From a virus, in IMG/VR virus record IMGVR_UViG_3300030085_003713, positions 1 to 39,938 of that record: a stretch of 39,938 bases of DNA; one strand, written 5' to 3'. Below are positions 22,825 to 39,938 of this stretch, in pieces. Every line of letters begins with the position of its first letter. The first letter of the stretch is position 1. The notes under the pieces were generated by a model that saw only the letters and a program-made list of their open reading frames with translations, did no database searches and was not told the DNA's origin. A program made the translations under genes and the position numbers.

Positions 22825-25800
22825 ATGCCCAATACATTTAACAAAAATACTTTTGCTACAACTTATAAAGACGATTGGGTTGATAGTGCAAACTATCATC
22901 GCATTCTCTTTAATTCAGGACGGGCACTTCAAGCACGTGAGCTAACGCAAATGCAAACAATTACCCAGGCTGAAATAGGTCGTTTGGGTAAACACTTATT
23001 TAATCAAGGCGCTGCGGTTAATCCTGGTTCAGTTGTTGTAAATAATGCATATGAATTTGTAAAGCTTCAAGATGCAACATTACCATCTGGTACATGGGTC
23101 GGAACATATCTGACTTCTGGTACTAATTCTATTGGTATGCAAGTTCTCGAAGCAATAGCGGGATCTGGTTCTGATCCTGTCACATTATTTGTTCGATATA
23201 CTGGAACAAGCGGTGGAACTGCTGGTACGATTCCTGTTCGTGTTTCTGCAGGGGAAACATTGACAGGTGGACCGGCAACTGTAACTGTACAATCAACAGA
23301 TACTATTGCTAATCCAGCAACAGGTCAAGGTACGAAAGTATCGATTGCATCTGGTGATTTCTTTGCAATAGACAGATTTGTATTTGCAAAAGAACAAAGT
23401 TTTATTCTTTCTAAATATACAAATAATCCTGATGCCACAATCGGATTTAAAGTATTAGAAGATATTATTACTACATCAGATACAAATGCTCTATTCGATA
23501 ACCAAGGTGCATCGCCAAATACATCTAGTCCAGGTGCTGATCGTTATCGTATTAGATTAGAAATTGCAGACGAAGCAGATTTAAATAGCGATGATAACTT
23601 TGTATATGTTGCAAAAATCAGAGCAGGTAAAATTGCCACACAAGTTACAGGCGTAGAAGATTATAATAAAGTAAATGATATTCTTGCTTTACGTACAACA
23701 GAGGAATCAGGTAATTATATTGCTCAAAAATTTGATTTAACTTTTGAAACAGATGATTCAGATGCAACTAAATTAAATTTTAATATTAGTCGAGGCGTAG
23801 CGTATGTTGATGGTTATAGATCTATTGTAGATGTTCCAAAATCATTACCAGTTGCTAAGCCACGTACTACTATAGCATCTAATAATAACGTTGTATCTGT
23901 CGATTACGGTAATTATGTAAAAGTCTATGGTAACAATAACCGTAGTATACCAGATTTTGGTGTATTTGAAACAGTCAATTTACGTACTAATACAGGTCAT
24001 GGTGGTTCAACAATTGGTACAGCTCGCGTAAGAGCAATTGTAGAAGATGGTTCTAATTATAAACTATATCTTTTCGATGTTAAAATGAATGCTGGTGTAA
24101 ACAAGCAAACCACAAGATCTATTGGTACAAGTAGTAGTAATTATTTTAATGCCATCATAGAAAATTCTCAGGTTAGATTTTATGACACTAACGATGATAC
24201 TCTTTTATTTCCGTTACCAGCAGGACGTCCACAATCGGTAACTGATATTTCTCTTACTGTTCAACGAATACAGAAAAATCTAACATTAGACGGATCTGGA
24301 AATGGTTCGCTTACAAACCTTACAACACCAGGTGAAACATTTGCCGATCAAGATTTATGGGCAGCTTCATCAGCCGCCGCTTCTGCATATGCTCCAACAA
24401 TTGTATCTGGCGGTAATGCTAGTACATCAGCTCAGATAGGTGGTGGTCCAGCAAGTACAAACGTTAATGTTGCATTCTATGTAAACAAAGCAAACGGTTC
24501 TGTAAGAAATAAAGTTTTAACAGAAACTACTGAAACAGTAACTCCTGATGGATCTACAGGTAATGTACAATTACAAAACGTAGACATCTATGAAATTATA
24601 CGTATGACTAACGTTGATTCAGATGGATCTAGCGTTCTAAATCGTTATACACTTGATAACGGCCAACGCGATACAATGTATGATCGTGGTAAAATGGTTA
24701 AGAAAACAGGCCAATCAACACCCGGTAATGATGTCTTTGTAAGATATAAGTACTTTGCTCATGGTGCGGCCGGTGATTTCTTTGCTGTAAATTCTTATAC
24801 AGGTCAAGTAGATTATAACGATATTCCAACATATACAACCACAGCGGGCACTAATTTTGAATTACGCAACGTAATAGATTTTCGCTCGTCTGTTAATACC
24901 TCTGGTACCTTTAGTGGTGGTAATGCAAGAATTAATGAATTACCACGTGACGCTGATACTGTACAATTTGACGTATCTTATTACCAAGGTAAAAATGCAA
25001 GAGTAATTATCGATCGGTTTAATAATGTATCGGTTCTTGAGTCAGAACCAGATCTAGTCCCCCAGTTCCCCCCAGTACCTGCTAACAGCATGGAACTATA
25101 TCGCGTTGAAATGAATCCTTATACGATTCATGACTCTGACCTATCAAAAGAACGAGTACCTGCTAAACGTTATACAATGGCAGATATTGGTAAATTAGAA
25201 AGTCGTATCGATAATCTAGAAGAAGTAACAGCTCTTAATATGTTAGAGCTAGAAACAGACACACTAGCTGTCTTAGATGCTTCCAATAACTCTCGACTAA
25301 AATCAGGTTTCTTTGTAGATAACTTTGCAGACCAATCACGTTCATTTACCGAAGATCCAGCATACCAAGCCGGTATCGATCTTGTAGAAAAACATGTACG
25401 TCCATGGCAAGCGCAGAACAGTATATTCTTAAAATATGATTCTGATAAATCTACAAACACTGTTTTAAAAGGTGATACTGTTTATAAGAAATATAGCCAT
25501 ACGACTTATATATCACAAACACTTGCTACAGAAACTGAGAACATCAACCCATTTGCGGTTGTTATAAACGAAGGTCTACTAGAGTTATCACCTACTTCAG
25601 ATAGTTGGGTTGAGCGTAAGTATCTTGCAGATAAAGATAATCCACAACAAACTAGGGTTGTTCCTTCAACAACTCAACGGCCGTTCTTGTTTAATGATTT
25701 TATATTTAACTGGACTGGTCAACAAGTTAATTTGCGTATGGGACAACAAGTTGGTACACGTACATTTAGACAAGGTAGAGATAATGTAACTCAAACAGAT

Positions 25801-27849
25801 AGAGTTATTGGTGATAGATCTGATCGTACATTAGTAAAAGATCATTTAATTGATAAAGTGTTTATTCCGTATATGCGTTCACGCAAAGTATATTTCCGAG
25901 CATTTGGTCTAAAACCATCAACACAAGTATTTGCATTCTTCGATAATAAGAAGGTTGAAGATTGGGTGAGATCAGAAACATTCCAGCGTGTATCAAATTC
26001 TGATTCAGATTATGGTAATGAACATGCACGCGCAACACAACACCCAGCCGGTAAGTCAACATTGACTACAAACAATGAGGGATATGTAGCAGGATCTTTC
26101 TTTATACCATCTACATCAGCTACAAGATTTAGAACAGGTACAAGAGAATTTAAACTTCTAGATATTTCTGTACCTAATGATGATAATGCAACATCGATTG
26201 CAACAGCTGCATTTACTTCGACAGGTATTCTTGAAACACGTCAACGCGAATATAATAATACACGTGTAGTAACTATCGGTGGTTCAGAGAATAGACGTCG
26301 ACGTCGTAGAATCGACCCACTTGCACAATCGTTCATGGTAGATGATGACGAAGGAGTCTTTATCACTAAAGTTGGTGTAAGGTTTGCATCTAAAGACGGT
26401 GTTGTTCCTGTTGCTTGTCAAATTAGACCAACAGTAAATGGCGTTCCATCTTCTGACGACATTGTGCCAAATGGTACAAAGGTTCTTTCGCCTGGTAGCG
26501 TAACAACAAGTACGAATGCAACAGCTATAACAAACTTCGAATTTGAAGAACCTGTATATCTAAACGGTAATACAGAATATGCAATTGTTTTACTTGCCGA
26601 TACTACAGCTTATACAGTATATGTTGCAAAAGCTGGTGACTTAGTATTAGGATCTACAGAGGCACGTGTATCAAAACAACCTAGCCTTGGATCTCTATTC
26701 CTATCACAAAACTCACGTACTTGGACACCTGATCAAGAAAGAGATCTTACATTTACAATTCAACGTGCTAGCTTCGTAACAGCAGATGCTTTCATGGTTG
26801 CTGAAAATAGAGAATTACCTAAGTTTATTCTTGATACCGATGGTTTACTTTCAACAAATGCTGACTCTGATATTCAGGTAGATGCTCTTGGACATGGTTT
26901 GAGAGTAGGCGATAAAGTTACTATTAGCGGAGCAACGGCAATAGCTGGTATAGCGGCAAGCGATATTAACGGAGATAGATCTGTCATATCCGCAGATGGA
27001 TATGGATTTACATTTAGAGCTGATAGTGCAGCAAATACTGCAACATTTGGTGGAGGACAAAACGTTTCAATTATACCAAACTATCAATTTGATGCGGTAT
27101 ATCCGATTGTAGAAGAACTTGTACCACCAAAAACAATTGTAACACACCAAGCTAAATTTATGTCCGGTAACTCATGGGCTGGGGCAGAAACAACTTATGG
27201 TAAAGATACATCATATACACCGGTTACAAATAATAAATTAACTGGTTTCGAAATACCTAAAATGGTAGCTAACCGTGTAAATGAAGTTGCTAACTTAACA
27301 TCTGGTACAAGATCACTTACATATAGAGTTAAAATGACAAACCAAAATGATCTTGTATCACCTATTATAGATACACAGCGTATGTCAATGGTTCTTACAA
27401 ATAATATGGTTGATAAACAAGCCGCCGCAGCTGCATCTGGATTTAATGTGCCTCTTAATTATCAGGCTGAAACAAATCCTCAAAGTGGTAGTTGGTTATC
27501 TAAACATATTACTGTTCCGGTAACTCTAGAAAATACAGCGGTTGGATTAAAAATTCTATTAGCTGCAAACAGACCTTCTGTTTCTGATTTTCATGTATAT
27601 TACAGAACAGATACATCAGTTACAACTGGTAATATATTAGACGCAAATTGGGTTTTAATTGCTCCTGAAAATTCAATACCATCTGATGATGATCCACAAA
27701 GATTTAGAGAGTATACGTATTTACCTGGTGGTGCAGGTGGATCGTTAGATGCATTCTCTGCATTTCAATTAAAAATTGTATTCGAATCTACTAATTCTAC
27801 TAAGGTACCTATTATTAGAGATCTAAGAGCGATTGCATTGGCCACATGA
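22825..27849 (+). CDS. Very large baseplate/appendage protein (DUF4815-like)
   Basis: 1674 residues, the largest gene here. The N-terminus (YHRILFNSGRALQARELTQMQTITQ, HLFNQGAAVNPGSVVV) is the DUF4815-like module at the start of many phage baseplate/fibre proteins; VAYVDGYRSIVDVPKSLPV and FELRNVIDFRSS follow. A helical segment near residue 790 (IGKLESRIDNLEEVTALNMLE) may be a trimeric coiled coil. After R1157-R1162 comes the conserved IDPLAQSFMVDDDEGVFITKV block with beta modules to the end. It likely takes the place of T4 gp10-gp12 as the wedge-attached appendage. Exact role inferred. Confidence 0.75.
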   Translation: MPNTFNKNTFATTYKDDWVDSANYHRILFNSGRALQARELTQMQTITQAEIGRLGKHLFNQGAAVNPGSVVVNNAYEFVKLQDATLPSGTWVGTYLTSGTNSIGMQVLEAIAGSGSDPVTLFVRYTGTSGGTAGTIPVRVSAGETLTGGPATVTVQSTDTIANPATGQGTKVSIASGDFFAIDRFVFAKEQSFILSKYTNNPDATIGFKVLEDIITTSDTNALFDNQGASPNTSSPGADRYRIRLEIADEADLNSDDNFVYVAKIRAGKIATQVTGVEDYNKVNDILALRTTEESGNYIAQKFDLTFETDDSDATKLNFNISRGVAYVDGYRSIVDVPKSLPVAKPRTTIASNNNVVSVDYGNYVKVYGNNNRSIPDFGVFETVNLRTNTGHGGSTIGTARVRAIVEDGSNYKLYLFDVKMNAGVNKQTTRSIGTSSSNYFNAIIENSQVRFYDTNDDTLLFPLPAGRPQSVTDISLTVQRIQKNLTLDGSGNGSLTNLTTPGETFADQDLWAASSAAASAYAPTIVSGGNASTSAQIGGGPASTNVNVAFYVNKANGSVRNKVLTETTETVTPDGSTGNVQLQNVDIYEIIRMTNVDSDGSSVLNRYTLDNGQRDTMYDRGKMVKKTGQSTPGNDVFVRYKYFAHGAAGDFFAVNSYTGQVDYNDIPTYTTTAGTNFELRNVIDFRSSVNTSGTFSGGNARINELPRDADTVQFDVSYYQGKNARVIIDRFNNVSVLESEPDLVPQFPPVPANSMELYRVEMNPYTIHDSDLSKERVPAKRYTMADIGKLESRIDNLEEVTALNMLELETDTLAVLDASNNSRLKSGFFVDNFADQSRSFTEDPAYQAGIDLVEKHVRPWQAQNSIFLKYDSDKSTNTVLKGDTVYKKYSHTTYISQTLATETENINPFAVVINEGLLELSPTSDSWVERKYLADKDNPQQTRVVPSTTQRPFLFNDFIFNWTGQQVNLRMGQQVGTRTFRQGRDNVTQTDRVIGDRSDRTLVKDHLIDKVFIPYMRSRKVYFRAFGLKPSTQVFAFFDNKKVEDWVRSETFQRVSNSDSDYGNEHARATQHPAGKSTLTTNNEGYVAGSFFIPSTSATRFRTGTREFKLLDISVPNDDNATSIATAAFTSTGILETRQREYNNTRVVTIGGSENRRRRRRIDPLAQSFMVDDDEGVFITKVGVRFASKDGVVPVACQIRPTVNGVPSSDDIVPNGTKVLSPGSVTTSTNATAITNFEFEEPVYLNGNTEYAIVLLADTTAYTVYVAKAGDLVLGSTEARVSKQPSLGSLFLSQNSRTWTPDQERDLTFTIQRASFVTADAFMVAENRELPKFILDTDGLLSTNADSDIQVDALGHGLRVGDKVTISGATAIAGIAASDINGDRSVISADGYGFTFRADSAANTATFGGGQNVSIIPNYQFDAVYPIVEELVPPKTIVTHQAKFMSGNSWAGAETTYGKDTSYTPVTNNKLTGFEIPKMVANRVNEVANLTSGTRSLTYRVKMTNQNDLVSPIIDTQRMSMVLTNNMVDKQAAAAASGFNVPLNYQAETNPQSGSWLSKHITVPVTLENTAVGLKILLAANRPSVSDFHVYYRTDTSVTTGNILDANWVLIAPENSIPSDDDPQRFREYTYLPGGAGGSLDAFSAFQLKIVFESTNSTKVPIIRDLRAIALAT

Positions 27850-29499: not shown

Positions 29500-30020
29500 G
29501 TATTATAGACGATCACAAAGTGCATACTGCACGGTTTACAAATGACGAAAAAAAGGACGTCCTTATTGAGTTAGTCGATACTGAGGCTAATGCTAAAACT
29601 GATGACAATGATTTACAATTATTTGAGTATACTATTGAAGCTAAAGAAGGCGATCCAGAATTTGAAGCTCTTTTAAGACAAGTTACTATAGATGATATAC
29701 ACGAAGAAACGGTTAATTGGATTAGACGAGAACGTGATAGATTTGAAGCTACTGTTTTACAAATTGCCTATGAGCAAAACCTCATTCAAACAATAGAACC
29801 AATCACTAGTAATATTTGGGAAAGCATGACTGAATTAGTTTTTGCTGAATTTGATGAATCAAAACATAAAGAACAACTATTCATGTTTAAACTCAAGTTG
29901 TTTGAAGTTCCTGATATTAAAAATAGTAAAAATCGTGAGCTAAAAGCTAAACTTAGAAAGTCAAAAGATTTTATTGATGCTCTAAAATATATGACTCTTA
30001 TTGTCAGGCCTGAGGATTAA
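29496..30020 (+). CDS. Conserved acidic protein at the end of the appendage operon
   Basis: 174 residues, mostly helical and acidic (HEETVNWIRRERDRFEATVLQIAYEQ, FDESKHKEQLFMFKLKLFEVP, RELKAKLRKSKDFIDALKY). I recall a comparable protein behind the marine T4-like baseplate genes, without function. The C-terminal 17 bases overlap the opposing glycosyltransferase gene tail to tail. Chaperone or minor baseplate component is a guess. Confidence 0.65.
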   Translation: MSIIDDHKVHTARFTNDEKKDVLIELVDTEANAKTDDNDLQLFEYTIEAKEGDPEFEALLRQVTIDDIHEETVNWIRRERDRFEATVLQIAYEQNLIQTIEPITSNIWESMTELVFAEFDESKHKEQLFMFKLKLFEVPDIKNSKNRELKAKLRKSKDFIDALKYMTLIVRPED

Positions 30021-30783
30021 AATACATTTCAAATCTTTTATGTACGAAATGTAAGAAGTAACACGCATCGCTTACAGTGGGAATTGTATTATCAACGATA
30101 AAATTCCATTGTGGTCCGATGTTAGTAAATGGCAAATTAAACCTATCGATCATATATGACAAAGCTACTTCATTATTAAATGTCCAGCTAGCACACATTT
30201 CAGGTGGATAGAGATTATCTGCTAATGATTCTTCAAATGTTTCTTTAGCTTCTATAAGTCTATTTGTAAGGTCAAGTTCTTTGACCATTTTCTTGTTCAT
30301 TCCTACAACGCCTGTATTCAAGCACATACTTTCTCCACCAGTATCATGTAGAAGCAACATAGCCTTTTTATTTTGAGCCTTAGAATACATATCCATTCCA
30401 TGCCAATTAGCATCAGAATTTCTCCATGCAATAGTCTGCCTATCTAATTCACACACGACATTAAAAGCACAAATTGTATTTAAATCATGTTTATCAAAAA
30501 AGTTTTCGTTTCTTAGTGGAATTACATCATAGTCGAGATATAAAATTTCATCATAATCTTTTGCTAGTTCTTCGAACATAGTAAGTTTTTGAAACTGTAC
30601 ATCATCATATGCAGTAGAGTCAGGAGTAAATAGTTTATATTCAGCACCAATATGATTAGCATATGTAGATTTAACTTCACTCAATTGATCAGCATATTTT
30701 ATAAATGCTTCTCTTTTCTCAGGTCCTACAGATGTATGTTCATCTAGGTCATCCCTATATAAACTAAAGATTATTCTTTTCAC
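30004..30783 (-). CDS. Glycosyltransferase-like protein (GT-A fold, copy 2)
   Basis: 259 residues starting with GTG. KLTMFEELAKDYDEILYLDYDVIPLRNENFFD contains the DxD metal/nucleotide-sugar motif (DYD) in the usual GT8/GT-A setting; MCLNTGVVGMNKKM and WTFNNEVALSYMIDRF match the acceptor side of such enzymes. It is a paralogue of the gene just upstream in the operon. Likely transfers a sugar from a nucleotide donor; acceptor unknown. Last gene of the leftward biosynthetic run; overlaps its upstream neighbour by 20 bases. Confidence 0.75.
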   Translation of the reverse strand: MKRIIFSLYRDDLDEHTSVGPEKREAFIKYADQLSEVKSTYANHIGAEYKLFTPDSTAYDDVQFQKLTMFEELAKDYDEILYLDYDVIPLRNENFFDKHDLNTICAFNVVCELDRQTIAWRNSDANWHGMDMYSKAQNKKAMLLLHDTGGESMCLNTGVVGMNKKMVKELDLTNRLIEAKETFEESLADNLYPPEMCASWTFNNEVALSYMIDRFNLPFTNIGPQWNFIVDNTIPTVSDACYFLHFVHKRFEMYFNPQA

Positions 30784-31603
30784 AGTAATTCCTCACGTAC
30801 TCGAAGTCTTTAGATACACAATGTACAAACTTTGCGGACTTTGATATATATGACCAATTGTCCATAAAGTAATGCCAATCATCTAAAGGTTGATATTGTA
30901 CTTTATTTATATGTGTCTTATAACCCCATACTGTTTCATTATCATATCCAAACATTTTACGTATTGAATCGGGATAAAATTCATCGGTAGTCATATCACG
31001 CATAATATCTAATGTCTCTTGAAAATTTTCAAAGTATGCTAGCTTACGCAAATCATCAGACCTAGCGCATACAATACCAGTATTAAATACTTCTGGTTCT
31101 TTAAGATAGATTCCATAATCAGATAACATGCATCGCGTATTCCATAGCTTAGCCATGGGCGAACGTACATGATGATTATATTTTAAAGTATCCTGTAACT
31201 TTATGTCAGTCTGATTTGCGTGTGTACCAGTTAGTATGGCAACACCTTTATCTAAATCTATTTCATTAAAGATATTCTCTTTTGTAACTGGTATGACATC
31301 CATGTCAAGATATAAAATTTCATCGTAATCATCTATAAGACTATACATTAGTTGTATCTTCCAGAAGTTTACTATATTATAGAAACTAACTTCAGGATAA
31401 TTCTCTTCAAACCATAATCTATAATATAAAAACTTTTTAGTTTCAAAAAAATGTTTATATTCTACTCCAATTGAGTTTGCATACTCTACATGTTTATCAC
31501 GTAGCCAATTGTAATTTTCTTTAAATAAATCTACTGATTCAGGATGAGATACAACCTTGTCTTTTGGTATATCAATGTAAAAGCTGTATATAACTCTACG
31601 CAT
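30764..31603 (-). CDS. Glycosyltransferase-like protein (GT-A fold, copy 1)
   Basis: 279 residues from the ATG at 31603 (a TTG 6 bases upstream is possible). It shares with its neighbour the blocks EYANSIGVEYKHF, DDYDEILYLDMDVIPVTKENIF (DxD motif) and VFNTGIVCARSDDL, and the late FMDNWSYISKSAKFVHCV. The two are clearly tandem paralogues, diverged enough to suggest different donors or acceptors. GT-A glycosyltransferase by pattern; substrate unknown. Overlaps both neighbours, so it is part of one transcript. Confidence 0.75.
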   Translation of the reverse strand: MRRVIYSFYIDIPKDKVVSHPESVDLFKENYNWLRDKHVEYANSIGVEYKHFFETKKFLYYRLWFEENYPEVSFYNIVNFWKIQLMYSLIDDYDEILYLDMDVIPVTKENIFNEIDLDKGVAILTGTHANQTDIKLQDTLKYNHHVRSPMAKLWNTRCMLSDYGIYLKEPEVFNTGIVCARSDDLRKLAYFENFQETLDIMRDMTTDEFYPDSIRKMFGYDNETVWGYKTHINKVQYQPLDDWHYFMDNWSYISKSAKFVHCVSKDFEYVRNYCEKNNL

Positions 31604-32963
31604 AACCAATCACCATAAATCTCTTATAACCGTTTGGCATATCTAATGAGCCTTTATATAATACTCTTTTAAATTCACACATTCTAGCAAGTTCATCTTC
31701 ATCATTCACGCAATTTATGTGATCAGGAACATGGAACATATTATTGCTCTGAATTGCAAATACAGTAGGTTTTCTTTCACCATCATATTTTTTATAATTT
31801 TTATTAGCTATAATAACTGGTAGCGGAGGCATATGTTCAGATGACGTATTAATAACAACGTCTACATCACTGTCTCTTTTACCAGCTTCTAATACGTTTC
31901 CATGAATTGTATCTATGTTATCATTTAACAATCTACAAACGTGCAGTGCATTTTCATCTAGATCTATATTTTCAATCCACTGTATATTTTTAAATGCTGA
32001 CCGTAGAATCGTTGTAATAGGATGAGCAAACCATCCTCCATATAATTGTATTTTCTTAGGATTATGAATACATTTAATTAGATTTTCTACTAACCATAAT
32101 TTTGATTCATACTGATTAGGTGATAAACTATCTAAAAAATGATTTACATCACCTCCGCTATATGAACATTCCCACAAAGCATCCCATAGTTTTCTATCAA
32201 TGCCGGTATGATTAACATCTTTCCATTGATTATTAGACTCCCATTCCCAATATTTTTCTAGACCTTCATATCCATTATTATCTAGCCAATAATTTCCATC
32301 TGGTCCTGTCTCTCTTCTCCACCCATTAAATATACAAATAGGATAATCTGGTTCATAAAAAAGTTTTTCAGGTTGATTGTCATTAATTGGTTCAAAACAA
32401 TTATTTTCGTCTACACCATATAAGCGTGAGTAAATTATTCCCCTATCAAAATTCTTTACATAGTCTGGACATTCGTAAGTTATAAAGCCATCAATCCCAT
32501 TATACATGAACAGGTATTTCTCGGGATCTTTTGTAAATTTTCTCCATAGATAAGATAGATCACCCTCCCATGCAAGCACGGAAGAATTATTATTCATATC
32601 TAAATGTCCAAGGGGATAACTTTTCCAATAAGCTTTAACCATAGTAAGCTTATCTTCTTCTATAGAATCTATAATAATTGATGGATCGTTTTGTATTACA
32701 ACATCTAAATCAAAAAATAAGTGTTTACCGCGTTTTGAATCACCAAATCTATTTTCATCAAATAGTTGTAGTTTCCACCACCACTTTTCTAATTCTAAGT
32801 CTTCATCTAATTCTCTAATTTCTACTAGAGGCCAAATACCATCGGCATCATCTGTATGACATATAAATCTAAAATCATCGAAATATTTTGCACACATAGT
32901 ATAAAGTCTATTCACGTGTTCGTGATTAAACTTATCACCCCACTTTACGCATGATATAATCAT
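31596..32963 (-). CDS. Glycosyltransferase / methyltransferase-like fusion
   Basis: 455 residues with two halves. N-terminal about 280: YFDDFRFICHTDDADGI, ELEKWWWKLQLFDENRF and GKHLFFDLDVVIQNDPS, a GT-A type domain with the DxD motif DLD. C-terminal about 150: IQLYGGWFAHPITTILRSAF, IQWIENIDLDENALHVCRLL, IDTIHGNVLEA and VDVVINTSSEHM. This follows a class I Rossmann methyltransferase order (SAM loop, acidic loop, motif IV), although the first glycine loop is degenerate. Inference: one protein adds a sugar and methylates it or its acceptor. Confidence 0.7.
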   Translation of the reverse strand: MIISCVKWGDKFNHEHVNRLYTMCAKYFDDFRFICHTDDADGIWPLVEIRELDEDLELEKWWWKLQLFDENRFGDSKRGKHLFFDLDVVIQNDPSIIIDSIEEDKLTMVKAYWKSYPLGHLDMNNNSSVLAWEGDLSYLWRKFTKDPEKYLFMYNGIDGFITYECPDYVKNFDRGIIYSRLYGVDENNCFEPINDNQPEKLFYEPDYPICIFNGWRRETGPDGNYWLDNNGYEGLEKYWEWESNNQWKDVNHTGIDRKLWDALWECSYSGGDVNHFLDSLSPNQYESKLWLVENLIKCIHNPKKIQLYGGWFAHPITTILRSAFKNIQWIENIDLDENALHVCRLLNDNIDTIHGNVLEAGKRDSDVDVVINTSSEHMPPLPVIIANKNYKKYDGERKPTVFAIQSNNMFHVPDHINCVNDEDELARMCEFKRVLYKGSLDMPNGYKRFMVIGYA

Positions 32964-34428
32964 TTATAACCAACAAGTCCATTTGTGTATTATTAAAGGT
33001 ATTTATTGCTTCTTCAGGAGTTTCAACTATAGGCTCTTGACAATTAAAACTAGTATTTAGAATCATTGGAACTCCAGTAATTTTATAAAATTCATTTATT
33101 AAATCATAATATTTTTTATTTTGTTTTTTATTGACAGTTTGAATTCGAGCAGTTCCATCTATATGCGTTATACCTGGAACTTTATTACCTTTAACTCTCA
33201 TGATTCTTGACATGTATGGGCTTGGTTCTGGAGTATCAAACCAATCTTGATAATAGTCTTCTAATACTGATGGAGCGAATGGCCTAAAGTCTTCTCTATC
33301 TTTTATTGTTCGGTTAATAATATCTTTTATTTCAGGATTACGAGGATCAGCAAGTATACTTCTATTGCCTAATGCTCTGTGTCCACTTTCTGATTTACCT
33401 TGAAACCAACCGACAATTTTACCATTAGCTATCTCTTGAGCGACCTCTCTAATATCTACTTTTTCTTCGCCTTTATAATTATACTGTTTACCAGCATATA
33501 CTGATGGTTTATGAATATTTTTATTTAGTATATAATCAGCATGCATGTAAGTACCAATTGATTGTCCTTCGTCTCCAGGTGCTGGAGGAACGTGTACTCT
33601 ATCCCAATTCTCATAAAACATTTCATTCATATAGCCATTATAACCTACACCACCGGCAACACAAATTCTATCAGAAGTTTTTAGATCATATACTGCATCT
33701 CTAATTCTTTCTTCCGTTGCTAATTGTAAAGTATATGCAATATTTTCTGGTCTTTTCTGTCTTATCTGAGAAGTCAATTCTGACCAAGGTTTCATTTTAC
33801 CTGTCTTCCAATAGTCATCTAAAATCATATGTAAATCCATATGGTGAATTTTACCATAACCAGCAAGTCCCATAACTTTACTTGCACCTAAACTGCCAAA
33901 TCCCATTTCCTTTGAGAACCAATCCCAAACTTCACCAATATCTAATTTTAGATTATATGGTTTACCATGTTTATCAAAAAATACAGTATTATATTTGTAC
34001 CCTCTCCCATCTATTGCAAGAATATCTGTTTCTTTAAATTCTGACGTAAGATAAGCATAAGCAGCATGTGATTGATGATGGTCTATATAATAAATATTTC
34101 CATCACGTTTATAATCCCATAAATGTTCTGGTTCCCAGTCCATAAAGCTTTCTAAAGCTTTTAGTTTAGGCATTTGATTTACACCACCGATAGTGGTTGT
34201 AAATGCATATATCTCATGTTTCTCTGGTTGCCAATACTCTTCATAAAAATCTTGGCCAGCACTGTTATCTTCTTTATTCATTTTATCAGCAGTGCTATGA
34301 TGAGGATAAGCATCATAATGCCATGGTATATTATGTTTACGTCGTGTATATCTTTCTCTTTGATTATGCCATACACCGTCATAAGTATTGTGATCATGTG
34401 GACCGAAGGCTGCGCTAAAGATTTTCAT
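32935..34428 (-). CDS. NodU/CmcH-type O-carbamoyltransferase
   Basis: 497 residues. The N-terminal part has the ASKHA-like YIDHHQSHAAYAYLTSEF and DILAIDGRGY; the middle MGFGSLGASKVMGLAGYG and CVAGGVGYNGYMNE; the C-terminal part GWFQGKSESGHRALGNRSIL and ADPRNPEIKDIINR, EDFRPFAPSVL, MILNTSFNCQEPIVETPEEA. These are diagnostic of carbamoyl phosphate-dependent O-carbamoyltransferases (NodU, TobZ, CmcH), which carbamoylate hydroxyls of sugars or antibiotics via carbamoyl-adenylate. Full length for the phage type. Candidate acceptors are a glycan made by its neighbours or a hydroxymethylated base. Confidence 0.92.
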   Translation of the reverse strand: MKIFSAAFGPHDHNTYDGVWHNQRERYTRRKHNIPWHYDAYPHHSTADKMNKEDNSAGQDFYEEYWQPEKHEIYAFTTTIGGVNQMPKLKALESFMDWEPEHLWDYKRDGNIYYIDHHQSHAAYAYLTSEFKETDILAIDGRGYKYNTVFFDKHGKPYNLKLDIGEVWDWFSKEMGFGSLGASKVMGLAGYGKIHHMDLHMILDDYWKTGKMKPWSELTSQIRQKRPENIAYTLQLATEERIRDAVYDLKTSDRICVAGGVGYNGYMNEMFYENWDRVHVPPAPGDEGQSIGTYMHADYILNKNIHKPSVYAGKQYNYKGEEKVDIREVAQEIANGKIVGWFQGKSESGHRALGNRSILADPRNPEIKDIINRTIKDREDFRPFAPSVLEDYYQDWFDTPEPSPYMSRIMRVKGNKVPGITHIDGTARIQTVNKKQNKKYYDLINEFYKITGVPMILNTSFNCQEPIVETPEEAINTFNNTQMDLLVINDYIMRKVG

Positions 34429-34954
34429 AAATGTATTGTCCTATTTTTTCATGACCGATTGCTGATGGATGACGATCAGCATCACTAATAAAGTCTTCAT
34501 TAGCTTTAAATTCAGCTTTGCTAAAAAATCCTATTGTATTACCTTGAACATTATCTCTATCTTTCGGATAAAGTTCTATCATTTGAAAACTATGATATTC
34601 TATACCTTTAGTTTTACAAACTAGTTCCATCAGTTCTTTATAGTTATTAGTTTTTTCGATATGATAATCTATATCACCTCGTATATCTAATCTATCATTT
34701 TTCCAATTGCCACGAACCTTATAATCACGTCTATCTGATTTTGACCATGCAGCAATTACCATATCTGGATTATTATCTTTTAAATAATTATATAGACTAG
34801 TAAAAATATATTCATTGCCAGCACCTCCCATAGCAATGTTTGTTAATTCATAACCGAGTTTATCTGCGACATAATTACACCAACGTTTTTTAATGCCGTC
34901 TCTTTTAAAATTATCTTCTGTAAAACTGCATCCGCCGACTAATAATTTTTTCAT
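34415..34954 (-). CDS. SGNH/GDSL-type hydrolase
   Basis: 179 residues. Block I GGCSFTED puts the nucleophile at S10; MGGAGNEYI provides the block II glycine; IAAWSKSDRRDY stands for block III; DADRHPSAIGHEKIG is block V with D160 and H162 as the other catalytic residues. Such enzymes remove or transfer acyl groups, for example O-acetyl on sugars. In this operon, acetyl editing of a glycan is the natural reading. Overlaps the carbamoyltransferase start by 14 bases and the upstream gene by 4. Confidence 0.8.
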   Translation of the reverse strand: MKKLLVGGCSFTEDNFKRDGIKKRWCNYVADKLGYELTNIAMGGAGNEYIFTSLYNYLKDNNPDMVIAAWSKSDRRDYKVRGNWKNDRLDIRGDIDYHIEKTNNYKELMELVCKTKGIEYHSFQMIELYPKDRDNVQGNTIGFFSKAEFKANEDFISDADRHPSAIGHEKIGQYIYENL

Positions 34955-35769
34955 AATACAGTTCCAGCCTCCATGATTTTTAAGATCTGTTCATTTGGGC
35001 GTCGTTCTACAAATTCAGTACAGGTCTTACAATAGTCTTCAAATTCAAACAATTCAAAGTTCATCATCTTTTGTAAGTTTTCATATGTAGGCTCAAAGAG
35101 CCTTGATCCTTTAATAACTTTTTTACTACAATGCCTAATCATTTTAAGTTCAAAGTCTATGACGGGTACCTTAGGAAATGCTGCACACATACGTCTATCA
35201 AACTCAGGTGCTTGAGAAGTCTTGCCCCATTCTGGTGATCTGCTATTAAACTCTTTTAGTATTGTATTCTTATGATCGATCTCAGGCAGGTCAAAATTAT
35301 CTCTATAATTAAAATAGCCCGGTGTCTTGATAATTAGATTATAATTATTTAAATCATTTTCTTCGAAGAATGGATAGTTACCTAACTTCTCTATCTTGTC
35401 TTCATGGAAATCAAGTACGAGATGCTCTACATAATATATGTTTGGATCTTCAAGGACATACGGATGAAACTTACGTACAAGAGAATTTGATAGAACAGAT
35501 AGCTTTACATTATCGTATTCTTTTATTTTGGCAATAACTTCTTTTAGATTCTTAATGAGACCGGGTTCTCCACCAAGTAAATTCACGTTTACTCTATAGC
35601 CTTCAAAACCATTGAGTGTATTAGTAAGAAACTTCATGTCAACATGCAAGTTACGCATCTCTAGTGTCCATGCTGTACAATAATGACATGATTTATTACA
35701 GGATTTAGATAGATAAAAATCTACACCTAAATATCCTTGTTCTCTAATATCTTGAATAGAAGGTATCAT
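34951..35769 (-). CDS. Radical SAM enzyme with C-terminal cysteine cluster
   Basis: 272 residues. The CxxxCxxC motif SCNKSCHYC (C24, C28, C31) binds the [4Fe-4S] cluster; LLGGEPGL is the GGEP motif that binds SAM. The C-terminal part contains RRMCAAFPKV, IRHCSKK and DYCKTC, four cysteines that could bind an auxiliary cluster as in SPASM/twitch enzymes. It would do radical chemistry on a small molecule, sugar or peptide; the substrate cannot be read. Overlaps both neighbours by 4 bases. Confidence 0.85.
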   Translation of the reverse strand: MIPSIQDIREQGYLGVDFYLSKSCNKSCHYCTAWTLEMRNLHVDMKFLTNTLNGFEGYRVNVNLLGGEPGLIKNLKEVIAKIKEYDNVKLSVLSNSLVRKFHPYVLEDPNIYYVEHLVLDFHEDKIEKLGNYPFFEENDLNNYNLIIKTPGYFNYRDNFDLPEIDHKNTILKEFNSRSPEWGKTSQAPEFDRRMCAAFPKVPVIDFELKMIRHCSKKVIKGSRLFEPTYENLQKMMNFELFEFEDYCKTCTEFVERRPNEQILKIMEAGTVL

Positions 35770-36149
35770 GTTTCTCTTTGTTGTGTAATTTCACCGTCTT
35801 TATAAAAAGTTTCTTTTTTATGTTGAGGAGTTTCTCTTTTTTTACAAACTATATGACACATAGGAAAGCCTATTCCTTTTCCTAACTTTTCATAAAATTC
35901 AATCCATTCATCAGTTAAAAGTATTTCATCAATACTATCGTAATCATATATTCTACTAGCAAGCAATAATTGTCCATATTCTATATCTTTTCTATTGACT
36001 TGATTATCAAGCCAACAGCATGGAATAAGTTCCATTCTATTTGTAATAGCATAAGATTCCTGTCTACGATCGAAACATTTAGGATCTAGTTCAGACCTTT
36101 GGTCTATTTGATCTATCTCAGGTCCTTCGTATTTAACTTCTTCTGCCAT
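35766..36149 (-). CDS. Stand-alone SPASM-like iron-sulphur domain
   Basis: 127 residues with five cysteines in SPASM-like spacing: C25 (DPKCFDRR), C44-C45 (MELIPCCWLDNQ), C98 and C102 (FPMCHIVCKK). The motif 'LIPCCW' followed by a distal C-x3-C is typical of the C-terminal auxiliary domain of radical SAM enzymes that act on sugars and peptides. Here it is a separate gene joined to the radical SAM core gene by a TAATG overlap. The two products probably work as a complex. Confidence 0.75.
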   Translation of the reverse strand: MAEEVKYEGPEIDQIDQRSELDPKCFDRRQESYAITNRMELIPCCWLDNQVNRKDIEYGQLLLASRIYDYDSIDEILLTDEWIEFYEKLGKGIGFPMCHIVCKKRETPQHKKETFYKDGEITQQRET

Positions 36150-36817
36150 TATAACCTCAATGCATATTCTGAAGATGGTTTTAAAGGATCGCCATTACTC
36201 AACCATCTTGATGAACTAATAACAGCAAAATCAACCCCTAAATCAGACGCCATATCTCTACATGTGTCAATATCGTTTTCATTAAATTTAAACACAATCA
36301 TTTGCCAAATTGGTGGATCTTCTAAATATTTTTTTCCTAATTTTAAAATTTCTATCATCTTATCACCATCTTGATTTATACGATATTTAGGACTATCTTT
36401 TGGTAATCCATCAAGGCCGATCCACCATTTTGCTCTTGGATTTGCTTTAAAAGCTTTAGGATACCACCTAAGTGGTTTACCGCCTGATGCATGATGAACA
36501 GATACAGATCTAGGTCTAACTTCTACATCTACTTGATTCCTTAAATAAAAGGAATGCGTATGTTCTAAAAATTCTATAAATTTTGGATGATGAACAGGAT
36601 CAGATACTTGGCCACAAAAGTTTATGTGTTTAAACCGTTCTGTAACTTTTTCAAATTCTTCAAATGGCATATCACTGCCTGGAACCTTTAATCCTTTTTC
36701 AGTGAACGATGAGAATCTTTGACATCTAGGACATTCTAATGGACACCGATGGGTAATATCTAAATTTACCCCCTGGCGCCTCATCATATATGTTAGACCA
36801 TTAGTATCGTCTGGCAT
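36149..36817 (-). CDS. Radical SAM core protein (partner of the SPASM-like protein)
   Basis: 222 residues. NLDITHRCPLECPRCQRF gives the CxxxCxxC cluster motif (C25, C29, C32). FCGQVSDPVHHPKFIEFLE takes the place of the GGEP motif. WWIGLDGLPKDSPKYR is the strand and loop typical of SPASM-group enzymes. The protein ends at the point where a SPASM domain would start, and that domain follows as the next gene. The family includes sugar-modifying dehydrogenases and epimerases; substrate unknown. Overlaps the aminotransferase gene by 25 bases. Confidence 0.85.
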   Translation of the reverse strand: MPDDTNGLTYMMRRQGVNLDITHRCPLECPRCQRFSSFTEKGLKVPGSDMPFEEFEKVTERFKHINFCGQVSDPVHHPKFIEFLEHTHSFYLRNQVDVEVRPRSVSVHHASGGKPLRWYPKAFKANPRAKWWIGLDGLPKDSPKYRINQDGDKMIEILKLGKKYLEDPPIWQMIVFKFNENDIDTCRDMASDLGVDFAVISSSRWLSNGDPLKPSSEYALRL

Positions 36818-37878
36818 AGTTTATCGATCTCTTCTTCTGTTAACCATGGGTGAATAGGTAATGACATTACTGTATTAGCAGCAATCTCAGCATTAGGTGT
36901 CATATCATTACGATAGTCTGTATTATTGTACAATCCGTTTGCATATAATAGTTTTTCGTAATGAATAGACGGATTAAATCTTAAGACATCTTTGACTGTA
37001 TCTTTAATTCTTTTACGTTTGTTCTTTGTTTCACATCTCATCACAAACTTATGCCAGTTATTTATGTTACCAGGTTTTGGCATCTTAGGTACAATAAAAT
37101 CTTCGCCCAATTCGTCAATATAAAATTGTGCAATCTTATTTCGTTGCTCAGTCCATTTATCTAATTGTGTTAGTCTATATGAAATAACATCTGCATTTGT
37201 AATAAACATCTTTGAGTTTGTACCTAGAACCTCAAAGTCTTTATCTTTACCGTGACGTCTAACCTTACGTACGTATTTAGCAAAGTCTTCATTATCGGTC
37301 ATAAACATACCGCCGCCTGAAATACCTGCCACAACTTTATTACCGTTAAAACTAAATGATGAACAATCACCGATAGAACCTGCTGGTCGACCTTCGTATT
37401 TACAGCCAATAGACTGTGCAGAATCTTCAATAAAGAACATACCGTATTGTTTACATAGTTCCTCGATCTCTGTTGTATCAGTCATGTTGCCATATAAATG
37501 CGTATAGATGACAGCTTTTGTTTTAGGTGTCATCATACGTTGCACACTATTTGCTGATAGATGATAAGTATCTAATCCAATATCACAGAAAACTGGAGTT
37601 GCTCCGACCATGTTAATACAAGTCGAAGATGAAATCCATGAGAAACTAGATACGATTACTTCATCGCCTGGTCCAATACCACATGCTTCTAATGAAAAAC
37701 GTAAAGCATCAGTAGCGCTGTTGACAGCAACTGCATACTTTCTACCAGTTATTTCTTTGATTTGTGATTCTAATTCTTCTGTACTACCTTCAACTTCTTT
37801 GACCATTGCTTTATCAAAGATTTCGTAATACTTAGATTTGTTTTCAAGATAATCAATATCCCATCCGTTGTAATTCAT
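36793..37878 (-). CDS. DegT/DnrJ/EryC1-type PLP-dependent sugar aminotransferase
   Basis: 361 residues, usual length. Family blocks: YAVAVNSATDALRFSLEACGIGPGDEVIVSSFSW, GATPVFCDIGLDTYHL, AVIYTHLYGNM, FFIEDSAQSIGCKYEGR (D152 contacts the PLP ring), SFSFNGNKVVAGISGGGM (K181 the Schiff-base lysine), MSLPIHPWLTEEEIDKLC. Such enzymes turn keto-sugars on nucleotide carriers into amino sugars for O-antigens, capsules and antibiotics. This points the whole operon toward an amino-sugar-like product. Overlaps both neighbours. Confidence 0.92.
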   Translation of the reverse strand: MNYNGWDIDYLENKSKYYEIFDKAMVKEVEGSTEELESQIKEITGRKYAVAVNSATDALRFSLEACGIGPGDEVIVSSFSWISSSTCINMVGATPVFCDIGLDTYHLSANSVQRMMTPKTKAVIYTHLYGNMTDTTEIEELCKQYGMFFIEDSAQSIGCKYEGRPAGSIGDCSSFSFNGNKVVAGISGGGMFMTDNEDFAKYVRKVRRHGKDKDFEVLGTNSKMFITNADVISYRLTQLDKWTEQRNKIAQFYIDELGEDFIVPKMPKPGNINNWHKFVMRCETKNKRKRIKDTVKDVLRFNPSIHYEKLLYANGLYNNTDYRNDMTPNAEIAANTVMSLPIHPWLTEEEIDKLCQTILMV

Positions 37879-38716
37879 TATAAGCCTCTATTATAGGTTG
37901 TATGTCAGGGGTTTGTGGATCACGATTCCAATAAACAGAACCACCATCTATACCATCAAAGTTTCTCAAATATATAATATCTTTATTGTAGTATTTACAT
38001 TCCATGAACAGACGAGGTGCTGGGTCAAAAGTTCTTTTATTATAAACATAAGTCTCAAATATTCCGAGCACATTATCTACTGGACAAAATATATTATTCC
38101 AATCTCTATTTATATAGTCCTCATCATATGATAAAATTCCATGATCTGGATAGTTAGGTACTATTTCTAAAAGCTCTGAGTAATATTCTCTATTAGTACC
38201 TAAGAACAGATGATTAAATTGTACATCATTTATAGGGTCTTTGTACATACTAAAGTTAATAGTTTTTTCAAAATGTTTACCTATACCATCAGGATAAACA
38301 TCTGTGTCACATAAATCATATACGTTCTTTGTTTTAAAATGTTCTAGTGCAAGTCCATAAGAATCATTATCGTTAGTACTATAAACAGAAATAAGTTTAC
38401 CTGAAAAAAGAAGGTGAGTAAGTAGTCTACGATCTTCATCATATAAATGCCTTTCTCTATATGGTATTGATATCATACTTCGGCCAAGAATCATTGTTAC
38501 ATCATCATCCTCAGGCCAACAATCGTTGATCTCTACATTTTTAACATATATGTATTTTTTTTCTAGTGAATCTAAATAATGCTGAGGTTTGTAATTACCT
38601 CTAGTAATAATTACAACTTGAGCTTCAATGCCGACATCATTAAGCATACAGCAATATTCATAACTATAATGTAGTAAGCCATCAACTGGCTTACTCGTAA
38701 CTACAATGTTTATCAA
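37853..38716 (-). CDS. Unassigned protein, possibly a GT-B-like glycosyltransferase
   Basis: 287 residues with a TTG start that overlaps the preceding stop (the next in-frame choices would cut the N-terminal strand). MINIVVTSKPVDGLLHYSYEYC and IEAQVVIITRG look like the first strands of a GT-B Rossmann fold. The C-terminal part FDPAPRLFMECKYYNKDIIYLRNFDGIDGGSVYWNR has the position and charge of a donor-binding loop. No certain family match. Located between a PP-loop enzyme and an aminotransferase, a sugar-transfer role is plausible. Confidence 0.55.
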   Translation of the reverse strand: MINIVVTSKPVDGLLHYSYEYCCMLNDVGIEAQVVIITRGNYKPQHYLDSLEKKYIYVKNVEINDCWPEDDDVTMILGRSMISIPYRERHLYDEDRRLLTHLLFSGKLISVYSTNDNDSYGLALEHFKTKNVYDLCDTDVYPDGIGKHFEKTINFSMYKDPINDVQFNHLFLGTNREYYSELLEIVPNYPDHGILSYDEDYINRDWNNIFCPVDNVLGIFETYVYNKRTFDPAPRLFMECKYYNKDIIYLRNFDGIDGGSVYWNRDPQTPDIQPIIEAYNELQRMGY

Positions 38717-39453
38717 GTCTCAAATGCCCATTGTTTCTCATGACACCAGAAGCATTGACCGCATGGTTCAGTATAGTAATTTGTTTCGTCTGGAAATCCA
38801 ACACAAGAGCTAGTAAATGGATATAAAGTTTCCATAAGATTGTTATCTTTATATACGCCAGCAACAAACTTTTTATCTACATTTATATACGGTTGATAAA
38901 TGACGTGTTTCCAAGGGTTTTGTGTTTTATCATCACGTCGGCGTTCTGCTACATCATAGAATCCATACTTCTTTTGTTCTTCTATGGGAGGATTACCTGT
39001 CATTCCAGTCATCATTAATGCATTAGGATATTTTTGTCTAAGATCGTTTTCATGTTTTCTTTTCATTAGAATCTTAACTAAGCCTGATGTTGTAAGAGCT
39101 CTGCCAACTTTTGTTCCATCAGGCATCTCTACCATTTCTTCTTCCCATTTTTCTTCTGCAAGCTTGCGCCATTCAGGATCATTTATATCAAATGTAAATA
39201 CTTCATGTTTATCTATTTTATTATCTGGAAATGTTTCTCTCATAAATTGAATTACATCCAATGAGCACTCATAGTCAAAAGGTGCAGTAACATCACGACC
39301 TGTATAAGGAGTTACTTTTATAGATGGAAAGTTTTTACATATTAGATAAAATAGAGAAGCCGAGTCTAATCCACCAGAAACAGCAAGTAGTACGTGATCT
39401 GGAATTTTTTTATCGAATAGGTCTATCGTTTGATTGCCATACGTATGTTTCAT
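38713..39453 (-). CDS. QueC-like PP-loop ATPase
   Basis: 246 residues. LLAVSGGLDSASLFYL (SGGLDS at 26-31) is the PP-loop of N-type ATP pyrophosphatases, which activate a carbonyl by adenylation. The C-terminal part SSCVGFPD, EPCGQCFWCHEKQWAF carries four cysteines in the C...CxxCxxC zinc site placement of QueC, the 7-cyano-7-deazaguanine synthase. No QueD, QueE or QueF is visible here, so a true preQ0 pathway is not shown. It may amidate or thiolate another substrate. It lies directly after the twitch-type radical SAM gene. Confidence 0.75.
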   Translation of the reverse strand: MKHTYGNQTIDLFDKKIPDHVLLAVSGGLDSASLFYLICKNFPSIKVTPYTGRDVTAPFDYECSLDVIQFMRETFPDNKIDKHEVFTFDINDPEWRKLAEEKWEEEMVEMPDGTKVGRALTTSGLVKILMKRKHENDLRQKYPNALMMTGMTGNPPIEEQKKYGFYDVAERRRDDKTQNPWKHVIYQPYINVDKKFVAGVYKDNNLMETLYPFTSSCVGFPDETNYYTEPCGQCFWCHEKQWAFET

Positions 39454-39455
39454 AA

Positions 39456-39938
39456 TTATCCTTCATAATATTCTTCTAGTTCAGGAAATTCTTCAAATAG
39501 ATGCATTTCCCATTTTGTACCTACATAAGCTGCATCTTGCTTAAGTAAGTATTTAATTGTATCCTGTATATTAACATCATTTTCTGGTGGAAGTGCTAGC
39601 GCGTGTTGAATATCTGGATAATCTTCATATAATGGCATTAGCTTCTGTTTAATTGCAAAGGGCAAGTTGTTAACCCTTAAATGCTTAGGTTGTTCAAGCA
39701 TAGCCCAGTTGATTTGATGTATTTTAGGATTATTAGTACAATAGTCAATTACTTTATTAAATCGCATAACACTTAAAAATGATACGAGTCCATTAAAATC
39801 GACGACGACATTATCATATGCATTACATGTATCAATGTTTCTTTCTACTTCATCCCACTCTGTTCTACGTCTCATATATTCTATATCTCTACCGATTCCA
39901 TCGATTGATGCAACCATAGCTACGTTTTTAAAATGCGG
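39456..39938 (-). CDS. C-terminal part of a twitch-domain radical SAM protein (start outside window)
   Basis: The frame is open to the right edge; 7 residues precede the first internal Met. VASIDGIGRDIEYMRRRTEWDEVERNI is the SPASM/twitch-class strand and helix (general form 'SIDGxGxxxEYxRxxTxW..VExN') common in phage and bacterial radical SAM proteins, followed by INWAMLEQPKHLRVNNLP. The cluster-binding cysteines would lie upstream, outside the window. It ends with FEEFPELEEYYEG. Adjacent to the QueC-like ATPase, 2 bases apart, so probably functionally paired. Confidence 0.75.
   Translation of the reverse strand, partial: PHFKNVAMVASIDGIGRDIEYMRRRTEWDEVERNIDTCNAYDNVVVDFNGLVSFLSVMRFNKVIDYCTNNPKIHQINWAMLEQPKHLRVNNLPFAIKQKLMPLYEDYPDIQHALALPPENDVNIQDTIKYLLKQDAAYVGTKWEMHLFEEFPELEEYYEG

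Follow-up and report, generated by a model that had tools for sequence, protein, structure and literature searches.

A late twelve-gene operon of a T4-like marine phage is a candidate pathway for making and attaching a modified sugar

Background

Pelagimyophages carry a variable island between the vrlC and neck genes, the host recognition cluster, in which tail fibre genes lie together with glycosyltransferase genes, and which holds GT8 genes and cassettes of radical S-adenosylmethionine (SAM) enzymes (PMC7029224). The passages of that publication consulted report the glycosyltransferases and radical-SAM cassettes and make no mention of a conserved pathway combining DegT, radical SAM and carbamoyltransferase genes. 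Here we describe an operon of twelve genes from such an island in the IMG/VR virus record IMGVR_UViG_3300030085_003713. The window analysed covers bases 1 to 39,938 of this 80,930-bp virus contig, and the run of genes was traced beyond its edge; coordinates are those of the contig, and the genes carry letters from A to M that follow the direction of transcription, with A and B as a single gene (Table 1). The first-pass annotation of the window proposed a pathway for a decorated sugar, glycan or nucleoside-like compound and called the gene combination unfamiliar. We did not find this combination in the literature searched, and the radical-SAM cassettes and GT8 genes of the region are already described (PMC7029224).

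The closest named relative of the phage is Pelagibacter phage Mosig EXVC030M (MT647606), whose GT8 and radical-SAM cassettes likewise lie in the interval from VrlC to the neck genes (PMC7029224). Mosig has homologues of D, E, F, G, H, I, J, K2 and L with 31–57% identity, but differs in having no detectable C homologue, a shuffled gene order and nitroreductases; among 50,697 phage records, H was found in Mosig only. Cyanophages (e.g. S-CAM8, Kyanoviridae) encode Nol-like carbamoyltransferases homologous to J, with approximately 28–48% identity over the matched part, but the S-CAM8 carbamoyltransferase stands without annotated partners of the D, E or H type. Campylobacter phage CP220 (L100, 68914–85000), a cultured phage, is also T4-like and in one region combines several F-like radical SAM genes, nucleotide-sugar transferases, a tail fibre gene and a weak D homologue (gp077), but it has an amidinotransferase instead of a DegT aminotransferase or carbamoyltransferase, and the homology is weak (22–27% identity). 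The aminocyclitol pathways, with butirosin BtrN, spectinomycin SpeY, tobramycin TobZ and the glutamine:scyllo-inosose aminotransferase, use the same enzyme classes and provide the nearest structures for H, J and E, whereas the phage operon is late, has several glycosyltransferases and contains no cyclitol synthase that could be identified.

Conserved linkage of the operon genes

The twelve genes are all on the minus strand, from contig position 40884 down to 30004, with junctions that overlap by 20, 14, 29, 14, 4, 4, 1, 25, 26 and 4 nt and a single gap of 2 nt (39454–39455), in agreement with the layout given by the first-pass annotation, which had also noted that the run continues past the window edge. 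The ORF at that edge (39456–39938) was rejected as a separate protein, since it results from an assembly gap: 10 Ns at contig 39939–39948 split gene A/B, which is an uninterrupted ORF both in L009, a near-identical contig, and in the relative L008. As A/B is thus one gene running to 40884, the operon comprises twelve genes and ends at this position. None of the operon genes encodes a convincing membrane protein; a membrane segment was flagged in C (1.73), which we interpret as a buried strand within the PP-loop fold and not as a helix.

Querying IMG/VR with an alignment of H gave 189 relatives, of which 80 were fetched, and removal of near-duplicates left 54 locus groups containing H. Within these non-redundant loci, J and E were each present in 53, K2 in 49, D in 48 and F in 41, with C in just 20, and all homologues counted of D, E, F, G, J, K, L, M, C and I were on the strand of H, with median overlaps of 1–38 nt at the junctions between neighbouring genes. 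Because H had chosen this set of loci, linkage was retested with a search seeded by D, and among the 31 groups whose sequence extends at least 8 kb beyond D on the downstream side, E occurred in 30, J in 29, H in 27, F in 26 and K2 in 26; as the two sets share contigs, the second serves to check for ascertainment bias and is not fully independent of the first. The order of the genes is shuffled from phage to phage, which argues that selection, and not recent descent alone, maintains the linkage. The core was also found on a 261-kb contig with a terminase that is merely 34% identical, and median dN/dS values were 0.06–0.15 in those families that provided usable pairs, apart from C, where the value of 0.31 comes from two pairs, too few for a median. 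The optional members F+G, A/B, C, I, the GT8 genes and nitroreductases vary among relatives.

Scattered genes in relatives and broken catalytic sites were the two findings that the first-pass annotation had named as counting against a coherent pathway. Both were looked for, and linkage proved tight, with the core genes co-occurring in dozens of independent phage contigs, and the catalytic motifs intact. The assignment of the twelve genes to one pathway is thus supported, and the original observation as a whole is confirmed as real and extended. The relatives also contain nitroreductase-fold genes (95 copies in 38 locus groups, including L002, L012, L013 and L072), which are absent from the cluster in the window, and in one of these loci two cobalamin-binding radical SAM look-alikes, judged by eye, adjoin the module (L013:1348–2910 and L013:5819–7327, minus strand).

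Enzyme classes encoded by the operon

All gene families named in the first-pass annotation were recovered, including its three radical SAM systems (Table 1). The closest structures to aminotransferase E in the PDB are glutamine:scyllo-inositol transaminase (E 1e-59) and also QdtB/perosamine synthetase, and its catalytic-lysine motif SF[NHS]xxK is present in 80/80 relatives. Carbamoyltransferase J is closest to novobiocin carbamoyltransferase and TobZ (E 1e-45 to 1e-47), contains both the N- and C-terminal Carbam_trans domains, the HHxxHA metal site and the GxRALGNRS carbamoyl-transfer motif, and is predicted from its sequence to carbamoylate a sugar hydroxyl. Core gene D had no family match in Pfam, NCBIfam or PHROGs, but its AlphaFold2 model (alignment of 48 sequences; predicted local distance difference test (pLDDT) 94, predicted template modelling score 0.90) matched GT-B glycosyltransferases in a Foldseek search of the PDB, namely LmbT (4e-4), SenB, the T4 alpha-glucosyltransferase (AGT) and WaaG, although with whole-chain TM-scores of only about 0.3–0.5; D is thus modelled with high confidence as a GT-B glycosyltransferase. 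The D domain (51% identity, TM 0.97) also forms part of a 974-aa viral protein (BFVD A0A1B1IX00), which shows that some viruses carry D as a fusion with other domains.

The three radical SAM systems (H, the split F+G pair and A/B) each have the CxxxCxxC motif together with auxiliary-cluster cysteines, as is characteristic of the SPASM/Twitch group. In core enzyme H, CxxxCxxC and GGEP are present in 85/85 relatives, and the invariant cysteines are C24, C28, C31, C195, C214, C247 and C250. The fold of the H model (pLDDT 86) resembles SuiB, CteB, SpeY, BtrN, viperin and DesII; the best matches are SuiB and CteB, both maturases of ribosomally synthesised and post-translationally modified peptides (RiPPs), while SpeY, BtrN and DesII act on aminocyclitols or amino sugars. 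A viperin-like or other defence function of H was rejected, as the pVip and viperin models cover only the radical-SAM core (residues 16–96) and H has four further invariant cysteines. The F motif CxxxCxxC is conserved in 79/79 relatives, and G, with invariant cysteines C25, C44, C45, C98 and C102, directly follows F in 27 locus groups with a median overlap of 4 nt. The match of A to N_Twi_rSAM (E 5e-46) reached 157.5 bits against a curated cut-off of 170, with the N-terminal half of the gene only.

The N-terminal part of K (K1, residues 2–151) matches the glycosyltransferase family phrog_1962 (E 5e-9), and several relatives encode K1 and K2 as two separate genes. A weak Spermine_synth match in one K2 relative (E 0.0012) leaves the exact transferase type of K2 uncertain. 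The GT8-like gene L follows K2 in 20 locus groups. For the SGNH-like protein I, the G[CDG]S block (GCS/GDS) was found in 32/32 relatives and DxH in 30/32, with the canonical DxxH in just 9/32, and the homologue in L008 matched Lipase_GDSL_2 (E 0.0012).

Enzyme C shares with the QueC family (PF06508) the SGGxDS phosphate loop (38/38 relatives) and C-terminal zinc-type cysteines (C(x)nCxxCxxC, 32/38 relatives). Canonical QueC has a C(x)8CxxCxxC zinc site and the motifs YxQxHxxE, VPxRN and YPDC (PMC13329287), whereas the cysteines of C are spaced as C217(x13)C231xxC234xxC237 and all three substrate motifs are absent from its sequence. A role of C as canonical QueC in 7-deazaguanine synthesis was rejected on these grounds, and C is probably an ATP-dependent ligase forming an amide or other nitrogen bond.

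Table 1. Operon genes and other features of the contig
Feature	Position (contig)	Strand	Assignment	Family match or remark
A/B	39456–39938, on to 40884	-	Twitch-domain radical SAM enzyme	part in window is C-terminal half
C	38713–39453	-	QueC-superfamily PP-loop ATPase, accessory	PF06508, weak (E 0.002)
D	37853–38716	-	GT-B fold glycosyltransferase (model), core	phage-specific family
E	36793–37878	-	DegT/DnrJ/EryC1 pyridoxal phosphate-dependent sugar aminotransferase, core	PF01041 (E 7e-87)
F	36149–36817	-	radical SAM core; split radical SAM enzyme together with G	NCBIfam radical-SAM maturases, weak (E 1e-5)
G	35766–36149	-	free-standing SPASM/twitch-like cysteine domain, partner of F
H	34951–35769	-	radical SAM enzyme with auxiliary-cluster cysteines, core
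I	34415–34954	-	SGNH-like hydrolase/esterase, accessory	assignment weak
J	32935–34428	-	NodU/TobZ-type O-carbamoyltransferase, core	PF16861 (E 1e-67), PF02543 (E 2e-18)
K	31596–32963	-	GT-A-like glycosyltransferase (K1, N-terminal) fused to SAM-dependent methyltransferase-like domain (K2, C-terminal)
L	30764–31609	-	GT8-like glycosyltransferase	PF01501 (E 5e-6); LD.D in 29/29 relatives
M	30004–30783	-	GT8-like glycosyltransferase, GT-A	PF01501 (E 4e-7); DxD present, D.D in 23/23 relatives
TATAAATA	40926–40919	-	T4-type late promoter	42 nt upstream of gene A start
VrlC homologue	22825–27849			32% identity to Mosig VrlC
Divergent operon p1–p4	40908–43555	+	radical SAM/SPASM p1, p2, 2-oxoglutarate oxygenase-like p3, p4	24 nt from gene A
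Tail-fibre-like and collagen-repeat ORFs	43629–48883
Collagen-repeat ORFs	45850–47619, 47621–48883	+	Pfam collagen repeats	L003:16851–19884; 24 and 13 G-X-K-G triplets
Second long run	48845–61515	-	four radical SAM, several 2-oxoglutarate-Fe(II) oxygenases	Trp-halogenase-like gene at 50330–51682
GT25-PLOD fusion	62086–64014	+	GT25 (collagen galactosyltransferase type), PLOD-type glucosyltransferase and C-terminal part, 642 aa	L005:1087–3015 (+)
Neck proteins	64053, 64810			phrog_211, phrog_460

Genomic location and late promoter

The contig encodes gp32, T4 baseplate homologues, a T4-type terminase and neck proteins, and the phage is T4-like, of the pelagimyophage type. The operon lies between the VrlC homologue and the neck proteins, and the tail-fibre-like ORFs and glycosyltransferase genes in this interval make it a host recognition cluster. 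Upstream of gene A is the motif TATAAATA, well established as the late promoter of T4. Of the 23 such motifs on the contig, 16 are located 8–90 nt before an ORF start on the same strand, compared to a mean of 1.0 after circular shifts; the count in the window (9, against 8.9 expected) shows no over-representation, and it is the placement alone that is non-random. The motif was also found near the first gene of the operon in 8/35 relatives, where approximately 0.35 would be expected.

The divergent p1–p4 operon next to gene A is also present in relatives, for example in L017, L020 and L058. In the second long run on the minus strand, TATAAATA is also found just upstream of an internal start in the first gene.

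Absence from sampled host genomes

Profile searches detected neither D nor H in any of 296 other Pelagibacterales genomes, the order of the SAR11 bacteria, and H was found in none of approximately 780 further genomes sampled from the class and phylum. In a collection of genomes from 84,980 species, D was present at three loci, two of which carry tail genes, while the third is a 7.6-kb contig holding the phage gene set only. An origin of the operon in host genes or a host lipopolysaccharide (LPS) pathway was rejected, as the sampled host genomes lack homologues of D and H, and at the resolution of the 296 Pelagibacterales genomes there is thus no borrowed host pathway. The pathway seems to be private to phages, as far as these searches extend, and more distant bacterial relatives could still exist.

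Collagen-like fibres and a probable lysine-modifying fusion

The protein encoded next to the neck genes fuses GT25 and PLOD-type glycosyltransferase domains to a C-terminal part that matches the lysyl hydroxylase domain of human LH3, with an acidic run and the HxD motif visible. Homologues of this fusion are found in several cyanophages, among them S-PRM1 and S-CAM9, and in Roseobacter phage CRP-6; no description of such a fusion in phages was found in the literature searched, and R699 and L230 of mimivirus are relatives in kind that have been characterised (PMC9546862). The two collagen-repeat ORFs of the tail fibre region are its likely substrates, and the domain content suggests that the phage probably hydroxylates and glycosylates lysines of its fibres. 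Such modification in the same region makes decoration of the virion by the neighbouring operon more credible. Collagen-like tail fibres were rejected as the general acceptor, since the repeats are strong here and essentially absent from the flanks of the relatives.

Proposed pathway and acceptor

The constant members are the aminotransferase E, the radical SAM enzyme H, the carbamoyltransferase J, the methyltransferase-like K2 and the GT-B glycosyltransferase D, which together point to a tool set for the synthesis and attachment of a decorated amino sugar. We propose that the late operon makes a modified sugar and attaches it, most likely to a virion protein, and give this reading a probability of roughly 0.5. 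In this scheme, E would convert a keto sugar or keto-cyclitol from the host nucleotide-sugar pool into an amino sugar, which H, in this phage together with the accessory F+G and A/B, would oxidise, epimerise or otherwise remodel. J would then add a carbamoyl group to a hydroxyl and K2 a further SAM-derived group, probably a methyl, whereas C may form an amide or amidine at the expense of ATP and I may remove or transfer an acyl group. D would attach the sugar to the acceptor, with K1, L and M extending or capping the chain. The acceptor would most likely be a co-expressed virion protein, for example of the tail fibres or the baseplate, and the benefit could be altered adsorption or protection of the fibres. 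The linkage, the enzyme classes with their intact active sites, the purifying selection, the absence from sampled hosts and the late-promoter motif are observed directly, while the order of the steps, the identity of the sugar, the acceptor and the benefit are our inference.

A virion fibre is the more likely acceptor than host LPS, because of the late expression among tail genes, the lack of a membrane partner and the lack of a host counterpart. Several points weigh against our proposal. Among the operon genes, no enzyme was identified that would supply the keto-sugar substrate, and a sugar substrate of H is not proven, since SuiB, CteB and viperin are among its fold neighbours. The exact form of TATAAATA is present in just 8 of the 35 relatives, and only Mosig has a short stretch of collagen repeats in its flanks. 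Late timing is also compatible with LPS as acceptor, and the GT8 genes of the host recognition cluster are read as LPS-modifying in the literature (PMC7029224).

That published reading is the basis of the strongest alternative, in which the same sugar is added to LPS or another surface glycan of the host, so that infected cells or their debris stop binding phages. Surface-glycan loci typically contain NodU-type carbamoyltransferases, DegT and GT8 enzymes, and the cytosolic glycosyltransferases of the LPS core require no membrane protein. The operon, however, has no flippase, polymerase, acyltransferase or membrane anchor, and neither H nor D occurs in the 296 sampled genomes of the SAR11 order, which at this resolution speaks against a copied host pathway. 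T4 exclusion functions act early, whereas the promoter here is of the late type. Disguise of the host surface is rated as less likely than a virion acceptor, and it is the alternative to be taken most seriously. The first-pass annotation had listed it next to virion glycosylation; the choice between the two leans towards the virion, given the late promoter, the lack of membrane proteins, the absence from sampled hosts and the collagen-lysine fusion.

Alternatively, F+G, H and A/B may act as maturases on side chains of fibre or baseplate proteins, upon which the glycosyltransferases, carbamoyltransferase and aminotransferase would build further. The RiPP maturases at the top of the structural matches of H are in line with this, as are the peptide-maturing PqqE among the weak NCBIfam matches of F and the additional radical SAM, 2-oxoglutarate oxygenase and flavin-halogenase genes beside the tail fibres. 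The most constant partners of H, however, are sugar enzymes (DegT, NodU-type and GT-B), and no precursor peptide was identified, which makes such peptide maturation improbable.

Modification of a nucleoside or of DNA, resembling that with 7-deazaguanine and with C acting as QueC, draws on the QueC-superfamily site of C (SGGxDS and four cysteines), on the DNA modification known from T4-like phages and on T4 AGT among the fold matches of D. As C lacks the motifs needed by QueC (PMC13329287) and is found in only 20 of the 54 H loci, as no homologues of QueE, QueD or FolE were identified in the operon, and as the promoter is late and the location is among tail genes, this is very improbable, and of the original interpretation it is the nucleoside-like product and DNA decoration that have lost ground, while the coherent pathway stands. 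A diffusible, aminoglycoside-like small molecule that is released at lysis or acts on the host is equally improbable, since the likeness to aminocyclitol antibiotic pathways (DegT, BtrN/SpeY-like radical SAM, TobZ-like enzyme and glycosyltransferases) comes without an identified exporter, self-resistance gene or cyclitol synthase, and four glycosyltransferases in a tail-gene location favour a polymer-bound sugar.

Conclusions

Few organisms on Earth are as abundant as the SAR11 bacteria, whose large phages spend tens of kilobases on enzymes without an assigned purpose. The fixed core in dozens of phages, the purifying selection and the absence from sampled hosts make a single testable pathway out of what would be a list of 'auxiliary metabolic genes', and for this pathway the cultured phage Mosig EXVC030M offers a test system. 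More tentatively than the attachment of a modified sugar as such, we suggest that a widespread family of marine T4-like phages may own a dedicated pathway, absent from the sampled host genomes, that places a radical-SAM-tailored, carbamoylated amino sugar, not known from cells, on its own tail fibres. If the product is indeed on the tail fibres, radical-SAM chemistry would be connected with phage adsorption, and virion glycosylation would gain a new sugar.

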